Origin: Massilia cavernae
Lineage (GTDB): Bacteria; Pseudomonadota; Gammaproteobacteria; Burkholderiales; Burkholderiaceae_D
Direction of reading: 5' to 3'
NCBI RefSeq assembly: GCF_003590855.1
Contig: NZ_QYUP01000122.1
Location: 1 to 64,000, forward strand
Length of the DNA: 64,000 nucleotides
The translations under genes were made by a program, and so were the position numbers. Under the pieces are notes generated by a model. It made no database searches. It was given only the letters and a program-made list of their open reading frames with translations, and was not told where the DNA came from. Shown here piece by piece: positions 59,780 through 63,475 of this stretch. Position 1 is the stretch's first letter. Each line of letters begins with the position of its first letter.

Positions 59780-59845
59780 AGAATAGTCAGGCTCGAAACT
59801 ACCGTCCAACACCGATTTAGTATCAGCCCCATACCTGAAAGGTAT
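59780..59845 (-). promoter_or_regulatory. CatR-type operator pair and catB promoter
   Basis: ATACCTTTCAGGTAT (59831-59845, minus strand) is a perfect ATAC-N7-GTAT site. Centred 22 bp downstream is ATACTAAATCGGTGT (59809-59823), one mismatch away. TTGGAC (59804-59809) shares the last T of this second site, and TATTCT (59780-59785) lies 18 bp further on. The distal site lies just before the catR start, so it can also serve autoregulation. Confidence 0.8.
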
Positions 59846-59849
59846 TCAC

Positions 59850-60764
59850 GTGGAATTGCGCCATTTGCGCTACTTCGTCGCCGTCGCCGAGGAGCGCAAC
59901 TTCACCCGTGCCGCCGAGCGGCTGCACATCGCCCAGCCCCCGCTGAGCCGCCAGATCCAGCAGCTCGAGGACATCCTGGAGGTCCCGCTGTTCGTGCGCG
60001 GCTCGCGCCCGCTCGAGCTGACCGAGGCTGGCCGCTTCCTGTACGGGCACGCTCAACAGTTGCTCGCTCAAAGCAATGAAATCATCTCGATGACGCGCCG
60101 GATCGGCAAGATCACCCACAAGTTCAACATCGGTTTCGTCGGCTCGACCCTGTTCGGCCTCCTGCCCGAGGTGGTGCGCCGCTTCCGCGCGGCCCATCCG
60201 GATACCGAAGTGAACCTGCTCGAGATGACCACCATGGAGCAGATCGCGGCGCTCAAGGAAGGCATCATCGACGTCGGCATCGGCCGCATCCGCCATGAGG
60301 ATGCGAACATCCGCCGCATCGTGCTGCGCGAGGAAGCGCTGATCGCGGCGCTGCCGATGGGCCATCCGCTGGCCTTCGTCGACCGCGGCCTGTTCCTGCG
60401 CGAGCTGGTCAACGACACGCTGATCGTATTCCCCAAGGCGCCCCGCCCCAGCTATGCCGACTCGGTGCTGGCAGCCTTCCACGACCGCGGCCTCGCGCCG
60501 GTCAAGGTATACGAGGCGCGCGAACTGCAGGTGGCGCTGGGACTGGTGGCGGCGGGAATCGGCGTGTCGGTGCTGCCGCGCAGCGTGCTCGGTTTGAAGC
60601 GCAGCGACGTGGTCTACAAGCTGCTCGACGAGCCGAACCTGACTTCGCCCGTCATCATGAGCATCCGCGCGCTCGACCACTCGGCCGCGATCCTCTCGCT
60701 GCTGCAGGTGATCTACGGCCTGTACCGCTCGGAAGGAATACCGCACGTACAGGAAACGCTGTAG
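59850..60764 (+). CDS. catR: LysR-type regulator of benzoate/catechol degradation
   Basis: The 304-residue LysR protein has an N-terminal winged helix (MELRHLRYFVAVAEERNFTRAAERLHIAQPPLSRQI region) and a C-terminal effector domain similar to CatR/CatM/BenM. In those proteins cis,cis-muconate, and in BenM also benzoate, is the inducer. The GTG at 59850 follows AAAGG. It is divergent from catB with shared operators of the ATAC-N7-GTAT type. Whether it also binds benzoate cannot be told. Confidence 0.88.
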   Translation: MELRHLRYFVAVAEERNFTRAAERLHIAQPPLSRQIQQLEDILEVPLFVRGSRPLELTEAGRFLYGHAQQLLAQSNEIISMTRRIGKITHKFNIGFVGSTLFGLLPEVVRRFRAAHPDTEVNLLEMTTMEQIAALKEGIIDVGIGRIRHEDANIRRIVLREEALIAALPMGHPLAFVDRGLFLRELVNDTLIVFPKAPRPSYADSVLAAFHDRGLAPVKVYEARELQVALGLVAAGIGVSVLPRSVLGLKRSDVVYKLLDEPNLTSPVIMSIRALDHSAAILSLLQVIYGLYRSEGIPHVQETL

Positions 60765-60770
60765 GCCTTC

Positions 60771-60836
60771 ATACCGCCCGGGTATGAACAAGATACTGCA
60801 TCAGTATTAGACGCTGCCAAAGGCGGCGCATACCAT
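60771..60836 (+). promoter_or_regulatory. CatR-type operator pair and catI promoter
   Basis: ATACCGCCCGGGTAT (60771-60785) and ATACTGCATCAGTAT (60793-60807) are both perfect ATAC-N7-GTAT sites with centres 22 bp apart. TTAGAC (60807-60812) overlaps the last base of the second, and TACCAT (60831-60836) follows after 18 bp. The layout is the same as before catB. Confidence 0.82.
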
Positions 60837-60870
60837 TCCCGCATGCTTTTTACAACATGCGGAGATAGGA

Positions 60871-61539
60871 ATGATCGATAAAATATCCGGCTCGCTCGAA
60901 GCGGCGGTCGCCGGCATCAAGGATGGCGCGACCGTCATGATCGGCGGCTTCGGCAACGCGGGCATGCCGTCGGCGCTGATCGATGCACTGATCGGCCAGG
61001 GTGCGCGCGAGCTCACCATCGTCAACAACAATGCCGGCAACGGCGACACCGGCCTGGCCGCCCTGCTCAAGGCCGGCCGCGTGCGCAAGATCATCTGCTC
61101 GTTCCCGCGCCAGGCCGACTCCCACGTCTTCGACAGCCTTTACCACGCCGGCAAGATCGAACTCGAACTGACCCCGCAAGGCAACCTGGCCGAACGCATC
61201 CGCGCCGCCGGCGCCGGCATCGGCGGTTTTTTCTCGCCGACCGGCTACGGCACCCTGCTGGCCGAAGGCAAGGAGACGCGCCTGATCAACGGCCGCCACT
61301 ACGTGCTCGAGTCACCCATCCACGCCGATTTCGCGCTGATCAAGGCGCTGCGCGGCGACCGCTGGGGCAACCTGGTGTACCGCAAGACCGCCCGCAACTT
61401 CGGCCCGATCATGGCCATGGCCGCCGCCTGCACCGTGGCACAGGTCAGCGAAGTCGTCGAACTGGGGCAGCTCGATCCCGAAACGATCGTCACCCCGGGT
61501 ATTTTCGTACAGCGCGTCGTCGCGCAAGGGAGCCACTGA
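60871..61539 (+). CDS. catI: 3-oxoadipate CoA-transferase subunit A
   Basis: The 222-residue alpha subunit moves CoA from succinyl-CoA to beta-ketoadipate. GGFGNAGMPSALIDAL and the SFPRQADS region match PcaI/CatI. GGAGATAGGA precedes the ATG. Its stop overlaps the catJ start by one base. The name pcaI is equally used. Confidence 0.92.
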   Translation: MIDKISGSLEAAVAGIKDGATVMIGGFGNAGMPSALIDALIGQGARELTIVNNNAGNGDTGLAALLKAGRVRKIICSFPRQADSHVFDSLYHAGKIELELTPQGNLAERIRAAGAGIGGFFSPTGYGTLLAEGKETRLINGRHYVLESPIHADFALIKALRGDRWGNLVYRKTARNFGPIMAMAAACTVAQVSEVVELGQLDPETIVTPGIFVQRVVAQGSH

Positions 61540-62183
61540 TGCAACGCATGACAAGAGACCAGATCGCCGCCCGCGTGGCGCAGGACATCCATGAAGGCGC
61601 CTACGTCAACCTCGGCATCGGCCTGCCGACCATGGTGGCCAACCACCTGCCCGCCGAACGCGAAGTGTTCCTGCACAGCGAGAACGGCCTGCTGGGCATG
61701 GGCCCCGCGCCCGCGCCCGGCGAAGAGGACGAGGACCTGATCAACGCCGGCAAGCAGCCGGTCACCCTGCTCGCCGGCGGCTGCTACTTCCACCATGGCG
61801 ACTCGTTCGCGATGATGCGCGGCGGCCACCTGGACATTTGCGTGCTGGGCGCGTTCCAGGTCTCGCGCAAGGGCGACCTGGCCAACTGGCACACCGGCGC
61901 CAAGGATGCGATTCCCGCCGTCGGCGGCGCGATGGACCTGGCGATCGGCGCCAAGCAGGTGTTCGTGATGATGGAACACCAGACCCGCCAGGGCGAAAGC
62001 AAGATCGTCGACGAATGCAGCTATCCTTTGACCGGCGTGGGCTGCGTATCGCGCATCTACACCGACCTGGCCGTGATCGACGTGACCGCCGATGGCCTGG
62101 TGGTGCGCGAAATGGTGCCGGGCCTGAGCTTCGAGGAACTGCAAGACATCAGCGGCCTTGCACTGAAGGAGGCACAGCCATGA
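61539..62183 (+). CDS. catJ: 3-oxoadipate CoA-transferase subunit B
   Basis: The 214-residue beta subunit carries the catalytic Glu in HSENGLLGMGP and the motif YVNLGIGLPTMV. It pairs with catI and overlaps both neighbours (one base with catI, four with catF), so the three are translated together. The name pcaJ is equally used. Confidence 0.92.
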   Translation: MQRMTRDQIAARVAQDIHEGAYVNLGIGLPTMVANHLPAEREVFLHSENGLLGMGPAPAPGEEDEDLINAGKQPVTLLAGGCYFHHGDSFAMMRGGHLDICVLGAFQVSRKGDLANWHTGAKDAIPAVGGAMDLAIGAKQVFVMMEHQTRQGESKIVDECSYPLTGVGCVSRIYTDLAVIDVTADGLVVREMVPGLSFEELQDISGLALKEAQP

Positions 62184-63382
62184 ACGACGCTTTCATCTGC
62201 GACGCTATCCGCACCCCGATCGGCCGCTACGGCGGCGCACTGAAGGACATGCGCGCCGACGACCTGGGCGCGGTACCGCTGCGCGCGCTCATGGCGCGCA
62301 ACCCCGGCGTGGACTGGAGCGCGGTACAGGACGTGATCTACGGCTGCGCCAACCAGGCCGGCGAGGACAACCGCAACGTCGCCCGCATGTCGGCGCTGCT
62401 GGCCGGCCTGCCGCCCGACATCGGCGCGACCACCATCAACCGCCTGTGCGGCTCCGGCATGGATGCCGTCGGCACCGCGGCCCGCGCGATCAAGTCCGGC
62501 GAGGCCGGGCTGATGATCGCCGGCGGCGTCGAATCGATGACGCGCGCGCCTTTCGTCATGGGCAAGGCCGACAGCGCGTTCTCGCGCCAGGCCTCTCTGC
62601 AGGACACCACCATCGGCTGGCGCTTCGTCAATCCCCTGATGAAGAAGCTGTACGGGGTCGACTCGATGCCGGAGACGGCGGAGAACGTCGCCACCGACTA
62701 CAACATCAGCCGCGCCGACCAGGACCTGTTCGCGCAGCGCAGCCAGGCAAAGGCGGCGAAGGCGCAGCAGGACGGCAGCTTCGATATGGAGATCACGCCG
62801 GTCGCCATCCCGCAAAAGAAAGGCGACCCGCTGTTGTTCGCGCGCGACGAGCATCCGCGCGAAACCACAATCGATACGCTGGGCAAGCGGAAACCCGTGG
62901 TGCGCGCCGACGGCACCATCACGGCCGGCAATGCATCGGGCGTGAATGACGGCGCCTGCGCGTTGCTGCTGGCCAGCGCGGCGGAAGCCGACCGCCACCA
63001 GCTGGCGCCGCGAGCGCGCGTAGTGGGCATGGCGACCGCCGGCGTGGCGCCGCGCGTGATGGGCATCGGCCCGGCGCCGGCGGTGCAGAAGGTGCTGCTC
63101 CAGACCGGCCTGTCGCTGGCCCAGATGGACGTGATCGAACTGAACGAAGCGTTCGCGGCGCAGGGGCTGGCGGTGCTGCGCATGCTCGGCCTGCCCGACG
63201 ACGACCCGCGCGTGAACGCCTATGGTGGCGCGATCGCGCTCGGCCATCCGCTCGGCATGAGCGGCGCGCGCCTGGTGACGACGGCGATGATCCAGCTGGA
63301 GCGCAGCGGCGGACGCTATGCGCTGTGCACGATGTGCATCGGCGTCGGCCAGGGCATCGCGATCGTCATCGAACGCGTGTAG
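62180..63382 (+). CDS. catF: 3-oxoadipyl-CoA thiolase
   Basis: The 400-residue thiolase splits beta-ketoadipyl-CoA into succinyl-CoA and acetyl-CoA, the last pathway step. The nucleophile Cys is in [10 protein letters not shown], and the general-base motifs are [17 protein letters not shown] and [10 protein letters not shown]. The length fits PcaF/CatF. GAAGGAGG precedes the ATG. The name pcaF is equally used. Confidence 0.92.
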
Positions 63383-63409
63383 CAAGGCGGAGCGCCCCCG
63401 CGGCGCTCC

Positions 63410-63475
63410 ATACCATCCAGGTATGCAATCGATACTGCATCAGTATTAGACGCCTGGACATGGCTTCATTACCAT
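63410..63475 (+). promoter_or_regulatory. CatR-type operator pair and promoter of the ABC binding-protein gene
   Basis: ATACCATCCAGGTAT (63410-63424) and ATACTGCATCAGTAT (63432-63446) are perfect sites 22 bp apart. TTAGAC (63446-63451) and TACCAT (63470-63475) have the same 18-bp spacer as before catI. The second site and the following TAGACGC are identical to those of catI. Confidence 0.82.

Follow-up and report, generated by a model that had tools for sequence, protein, structure and literature searches.

How far does the regulator of benzoate degradation reach in Massilia cavernae, and does it take in transport as well as catabolism? The question is raised by a cat-ben locus in positions 1 to 64,000 of contig NZ_QYUP01000122.1 (assembly GCF_003590855.1), the stretch of 64,000 nucleotides that we call the window. 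A reading made from its sequence alone had noted that the promoters before catB, catI and the gene for the substrate-binding protein (SBP) of an ATP-binding cassette (ABC) transporter share one geometry of paired operator sites of the CatM/BenM type. Their strict repetition was taken to imply that a single CatR regulates degradation and a transporter together. From the sequences we conclude that there are five such operator-promoters, and that they very probably belong to one BenM/CatM-type LysR regulator encoded at 59850-60764, controlling five transcription units.

The geometry proved exact base for base when the sequence was inspected directly, by pattern search and by in-register alignment. 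Each of the three promoters has two ATAC-N7-GTAT sites, five of the six being perfect and one having a single mismatch, and the centre-to-centre distance is 22 bp in all three pairs. The first base of the −35 element is also the final base of the proximal site, and the −10 follows after 18 bp. The proximal sites of the catI and ABC promoters are the same at all 15 bases. The motif agrees with that published for BenM and CatM, where Site 2 lies over the −35 and PbenA includes a GTGT half-site (PMC6628147; here and below, statements drawn from this paper, PMC6449761 and PMC3223731 refer to the available parts of each). The operators, located by pattern search and alignment, and the core promoters are as follows.

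59831-59845, minus strand: catB promoter distal operator (Site 1), ATACCTTTCAGGTAT, perfect
59809-59823, minus strand: catB promoter proximal operator (Site 2), ATACTAAATCGGTGT, one mismatch (GTGT)
59780-59809, minus strand: catB core promoter, −35 TTGGAC (59804-59809), 18-bp spacer, −10 TATTCT (59780-59785); spacing kept in relatives
60771-60785, plus strand: catI promoter distal operator, perfect
60793-60807, plus strand: catI promoter proximal operator, ATACTGCATCAGTAT, perfect
60807-60836, plus strand: catI core promoter, −35 TTAGAC (60807-60812), 18-bp spacer, −10 TACCAT (60831-60836)
60830-60844, plus strand: candidate Site 3 over the catI −10, ATACCATTCCCGCAT, one mismatch, 37 bp from the proximal centre
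63410-63424, plus strand: ABC operon promoter distal operator, perfect
63432-63446, plus strand: ABC operon promoter proximal operator, ATACTGCATCAGTAT, perfect
63446-63475, plus strand: ABC core promoter, −35 TTAGAC (63446-63451), 18-bp spacer, −10 TACCAT (63470-63475)

A scan of the whole genome for the paired motif, which the sequence-only reading had proposed, extended this inventory. With up to two mismatches the pair plus −35 has five matches in the 5.44 Mb, and none in the reversed control; the pair without the −35 also gives five places, against one in the control. At three mismatches seven places are found, two of them reverse readings of known pairs, and each control gives one. Single sites behave differently. 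The window holds 14 with at most one mismatch (shuffle mean 3.3), and the genome has 21 perfect ones, seven of which lie inside the five pairs. The 14 lone perfect sites equal the number in the reversed control (14), i.e. background, and were set aside as further targets. Single sites alone are thus weak evidence, and the pair with its −35 is strong evidence.

The fourth and fifth promoters stand back to back on another contig, C44 (locus L005), between a gene of the major facilitator superfamily (MFS) and a gene for a methyl-accepting chemotaxis protein (MCP), and both have a −10 at 18 bp.

C44:10439-10535, leftward: MFS promoter, distal site with one mismatch, proximal half-site GTCT, −35 TTGGAC, 18 bp, −10 TATCGT
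C44:10439-10535, rightward: MCP promoter, two perfect sites, −35 TTAGAC, 18 bp, −10 TACGAT

The three pairs first described therefore stand, but these two promoters and the one-mismatch third site at 60830-60844 had been overlooked. Across the five promoters, Site 1 is perfect in four and off by one mismatch at MFS. Site 2 overlaps the −35 in all five; it is off consensus at catB (GTGT) and MFS (GTCT), and perfect at catI, ABC and MCP.

Is the geometry peculiar to this genome? Among the other genomes of the family the pair plus −35 occurs in 89 of 391 at up to two mismatches (90 of 392 with our own, against 7 of 392 in the reversed control), and in 71 at up to one. Of 33 named loci fetched by means of the CatR protein, 26 have a 22-bp pair at up to two mismatches; with at most one mismatch per site they give 20 site pairs at 22 bp and three at 21 bp, where the control has none for either. 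We fetched 55 regions, covering part of the family matches, and obtained 72 distinct non-own promoters at up to one mismatch, one of which is a reverse reading. In 69 of these 72 a TAnnnT hexamer follows after 18 bp. Over spacers of 10-29 bp the others number three at 16, two at 19, two at 23, one at 24 and two at 29 bp, in a tally where one promoter may count more than once. In the Trinickia and Paraburkholderia promoters among the named loci a 19-bp spacer reads better. Behind the promoters of relatives lie mainly cat and ben genes, benE or the MFS gene, and pcaI once. The family genomes, the named loci and the −10 at 18 bp rule out a geometry restricted to this genome, and argue that it is a general BenM/CatM-type promoter plan, ordinary for the family and in agreement with the description of PbenA. 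The repetition that had seemed telling is exact, but relatives have it too, and on its own it is no distinguishing mark of this genome. Some relatives' pairs precede symporter-like (L110, L136), tannase-like (L123) and COG3246-like (L104) proteins, named by eye from their translations.

Which protein would bind these sites? The candidate is encoded divergently from catB.

59850-60764, plus strand: catR/benM-like LysR-type regulator, 304 aa, with R160 and Y292 (corresponding to BenM Y293)

Among solved structures BenM is its closest relative (285 bits). By position count in the alignment, an arginine falls at BenM position 160 and a tyrosine at 293 (292 in the protein itself), residues that are reported to be critical for the benzoate response of BenM (PMC6628147). 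Both are present in all 75 matches of at least 50% identity, some of which are one sequence fetched twice, and in two matches slightly below 50%. Of four matches at 33-37% identity, two have R at 160 and two do not, and position 292 is uncovered. The name CatR can therefore be refined, as both residues of the BenM benzoate site make the regulator BenM-like. The catB distal operator stops 5 bp short of the catR start codon (59850), and AAAGG within this operator can serve as the catR Shine-Dalgarno sequence. A distance of 5 bp from operator to first matched codon recurs in 22 of the 26 named loci that have a pair.

Control by a single regulator is supported by the common plan of the promoters and by the presence of one close regulator only, although the promoters of this plan number five and not three. 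A different LysR protein might act at some of the five in place of the divergent one, much as the paralogues BenM and CatM cross-regulate in Acinetobacter (PMC6628147). We found no close paralogue in the genome, the next best LysR protein being just 35% identical, in an assembly that is 93.65% complete and may lack a paralogue. On balance we regard a different LysR protein as very unlikely. Four points weigh against assigning all five promoters to the one BenM-like regulator. First, it stays below the strict, curated NCBIfam cut-off for the BenM model NF040709 (302 bits, cut-off 600), and we therefore call it BenM-like rather than BenM. Second, a second regulator may act on these promoters. 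Third, a class-wide sample searched for the pair plus −35 at one mismatch gave none in 368 other genomes and only our own (1 of 369), so that evidence for breadth beyond the family comes from the named loci (Serratia, Advenella, Pseudogulbenkiania and others). Fourth, the pair ahead of the benzoate ABC operon is present only here, and is found at none of 39 other homologous loci. These are the 38 loci L180-L217 plus L175; some end at contig edges, and in all of them the 350 bp upstream of the SBP gene are covered. Conserved control of the ABC operon is thus ruled out, and conservation gives that target no support.

We turn to the genes that the five promoters would serve. In the window these are the following, each assigned by a match above the cut-off of the model given except for the SBP.

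58631-59740, minus strand: catB, muconate cycloisomerase (TIGR02534, subfamily model)
58319-58609, minus strand: catC, muconolactone isomerase (TIGR03221)
57369-58289, minus strand: catA, catechol 1,2-dioxygenase (TIGR02439)
55987-57345, minus strand: benA, benzoate 1,2-dioxygenase large subunit (TIGR03229, 899 bits, cut-off 781)
55499-55990, minus strand: benB (TIGR03232)
54463-55476, minus strand: benC (NF040810)
53681-54466, minus strand: benD (NF040811)
52890-53672, minus strand: 3-oxoadipate enol-lactonase, catD/pcaD (TIGR02427)
60871-61539, plus strand: catI, 3-oxoacid CoA-transferase subunit A (TIGR02429, subfamily model)
61539-62183, plus strand: catJ, 3-oxoacid CoA-transferase subunit B (TIGR02428, subfamily model)
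62180-63382, plus strand: catF/pcaF, 3-oxoadipyl-CoA thiolase (TIGR02430)
63541-64000, plus strand: ABC SBP, cut by the window end; the locus continues in L006

The predicted units, with extents drawn from gene spacing, would be catBCA-benABCD-enol-lactonase, catIJF, the benzoate ABC operon with porin and BenE, the MFS-like transporter and the soluble MCP. An anthranilate pathway is ruled out, as the BenA, B, C and D models pass and the AntA, B and C models stay below their cut-offs. The SBP gene is followed by two permeases and two ATPases, with a porin gene and benE (475 bits, cut-off 203) at short distance. Among solved structures the SBP comes closest to 4evq/4evr (396 bits), which we take to be RPA0668. 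On C44 the MFS protein falls short of the aromatic acid/H+ symporter (AAHS) model TIGR00895 (386 bits, cut-off 418.55), and we call it AAHS-like. The MCP has 260 aa and a PF00015 signalling domain (110 bits, cut-off 34.6), with no other Pfam domain reported, and would be soluble; it is a probable chemotaxis gene. The genome encodes flagellins (four matches above cut-off). BenA is above cut-off in one of 17 genomes of the genus, our own, and the cat-ben cluster was either gained here or lost in the rest of the genus.

Two neighbours may be noted. At 51609-52847, after the enol-lactonase and at the end of the cat-ben gene run, lies a protein with a weak match to glycosyl hydrolase family 1 (57 bits, cut-off 22.6). 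Past BenE and a LuxR-like gene, L006:8497-11606 holds another MFS transporter, assigned by Pfam, and a frame that by eye resembles flavin monooxygenases. The pair ahead of the SBP gene is the single one in L006.

If the plan is ordinary, what sets these promoters apart? Among 112 non-own matches at up to one mismatch the 3' half of the proximal site is GTGT in 94, GTCT in 16 and GTAT in two. In our genome it is GTAT in three of five promoters (catI, ABC and MCP), each followed by TTAGAC. Both non-own GTAT matches have TTCGAC as −35. One, in genome G376, is a pair read in reverse. The other, in G412, has TACGCT at 18 bp but starts where one frame ends and points towards an oncoming frame, and therefore has no evident target gene. 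Allowing two mismatches adds nine further GTAT matches, most with a poor −35. Elsewhere TTAGAC occurs with GTGT or GTCT, in Serratia, Advenella and genome G383. As judged from these matches, catB with its one-mismatch proximal site follows the norm of the family, and perfect proximal sites are the exception.

The catI, ABC and MCP pairs might be recent copies of one promoter that were not separately selected, in which case their likeness would be due to descent and regulation of ABC and MCP would be incidental. The identical proximal sites of catI and ABC fit such copying, as does the lack of a pair at the 39 homologous ABC loci. Free positions, 45 in all, are also shared above the level of shuffles (12 to 13), at 24 for catI/ABC, 21 for catI/MCP and 20 for ABC/MCP. 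Yet identity ends at the edges of the elements, and the flanks of these three promoters, both up- and downstream, are no more alike than shuffles. The spacings are exact although around half of the free positions differ, as would be expected after selection on a working promoter. Moreover, catB and MFS make a second similar pair, sharing 24 of 45 free positions (12 expected) and 38 of 93 downstream of the −10 (24 expected). Recent copying is therefore improbable in our judgement, and we retain five probable promoters under the BenM-like regulator.

The third site is less clear. We infer the role of the candidate Site 3 at catI from that of BenM Site 3 (PMC6628147). Its T-N11-A lies 37 bp from the centre of the proximal site. 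The element is retained at catI, and by eye also at catB and MFS, whereas ABC and MCP have lost it. In relatives it is present at 36 of 41 catabolic, 12 of 22 transport and none of two MCP promoters. The catabolic and transport promoters differ with Fisher p 0.005, without correction for relatedness, and over half of the transport promoters keep the element. Its conserved A is the predicted +1, and may therefore be the start base rather than part of Site 3. With relatedness uncorrected and most transport promoters retaining it, we keep Site 3 as a class marker as a lead only.

How might the promoters work? By analogy with Acinetobacter BenM and CatM, a tetramer without effector would occupy Site 1 and the site over the −10 (Site 3) and repress. 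With cis,cis-muconate (and benzoate) it would shift to Sites 1 and 2, where it would abut the −35 and help RNA polymerase to start. Operator quality could then divide the promoters into two tiers, a scheme that we put forward tentatively and consider doubtful. ABC and MCP, where Site 2 is perfect and Site 3 lost, might hold the regulator in the activating position with little or no effector and so provide import and taxis ahead of demand, while catB and MFS, with a weak Site 2 and a Site 3, would be tightly inducible. On the same tentative footing the soluble MCP, tied by descent to a benzoate ABC operon, might serve metabolism-linked benzoate taxis.

The distribution of these two targets bears on how unusual they are. 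The ABC genes themselves are conserved, an SBP at E 1e-120 being present in 34 of 383 family genomes, our own included. A simple scan for BoxR-like TGCA repeats (one or six bases between) in the 350 bp upstream of the SBP gene gave none in 40 loci including ours, and boxB was not found in our genome. Relatives of the soluble MCP occur at E 1e-30 in three of 144 other genomes, where at most 18 candidates per genome were scored. The nearest found (G084, 61%) lies inside a benzoate ABC operon in the order SBP-permeases-ATPases-MCP-porin. In G119 (45%) 3 to 4 kb separate the gene from BenE and MFS genes, and in G064 (52%) it is on a short contig with a weak LivF as sole neighbour match. Regular membership of the MCP in the benzoate ABC operon is unsupported, as it is in the operon at one of the 39 other loci (L175). 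At L192 an MCP-like frame (43% over 123 residues) lies on the opposite strand, 3 kb off the ABC locus. Two other genomes (L129, L142) have a one-mismatch pair ahead of a gene for a full-length sCache chemoreceptor. The perfect proximal operators of catI, ABC and MCP, the ABC operon as a target and a soluble MCP in the regulon look unusual on present sequences. The promoter set as a whole is real, functional-looking and of a known kind, with these three unusual traits.

The fixed plan can be used as a search key for genomes: in this one it revealed two promoters, not suspected before, on a second contig, and among relatives it leads to genes for symporter-like and tannase-like proteins and for sCache chemoreceptors. 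The BenM shift model depends on a base of which the three perfect Site 2 operators carry a natural variant, and these operators therefore allow a direct test of the model. Should the promoters function as their sequences suggest, a catabolic regulator has gained control of an ABC importer and a chemotaxis gene.

In the literature as covered by listings and the openings of abstracts, with subscription journals mostly outside, we found no recognisable report of an MCP or a benzoate ABC operon under CatR, CatM or BenM. The nearest described system is that of Acinetobacter baylyi ADP1, where PbenA and PcatB likewise have an ATAC-N7-GTAT Site 1, a Site 2 over the −35 and a third site, and where the GTGT half-site of PbenA with TTGAAC downstream can be compared with the promoters here (PMC6628147). 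The BenM-type effector residues are common to BenM and the present regulator. This likeness covers the sites and the −35 overlap. In Acinetobacter Site 2 is slightly off consensus at both PbenA and PcatB (PMC6628147), whereas it is perfect in three of the five promoters here, and the targets here include the ABC operon and the MCP gene. In betaproteobacterial CatR and CatM/BenM regulons the regulator is divergent, and the cat-ben operon, benK, benE and a COG3246 gene are targets (Suvorova and Gelfand 2019, PMC6449761), much as here. Unlike here, the available part of that study names no ABC operon and no MCP gene among the betaproteobacterial CatM/BenM targets; it assigns the putative benzoate ABC transporter to BoxR regulons for most of the bacteria covered, and an MCP gene to an AphT regulon. 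The SBP resembles HbaE (RPA0668) of Rhodopseudomonas palustris, in that 4evq/4evr is its closest solved relative. HbaE binds benzoate and 4-hydroxybenzoate, and the anaerobic bad and hba operons flank its gene (PMC3223731), whereas the SBP gene here follows catIJF and stands behind a BenM-type pair.

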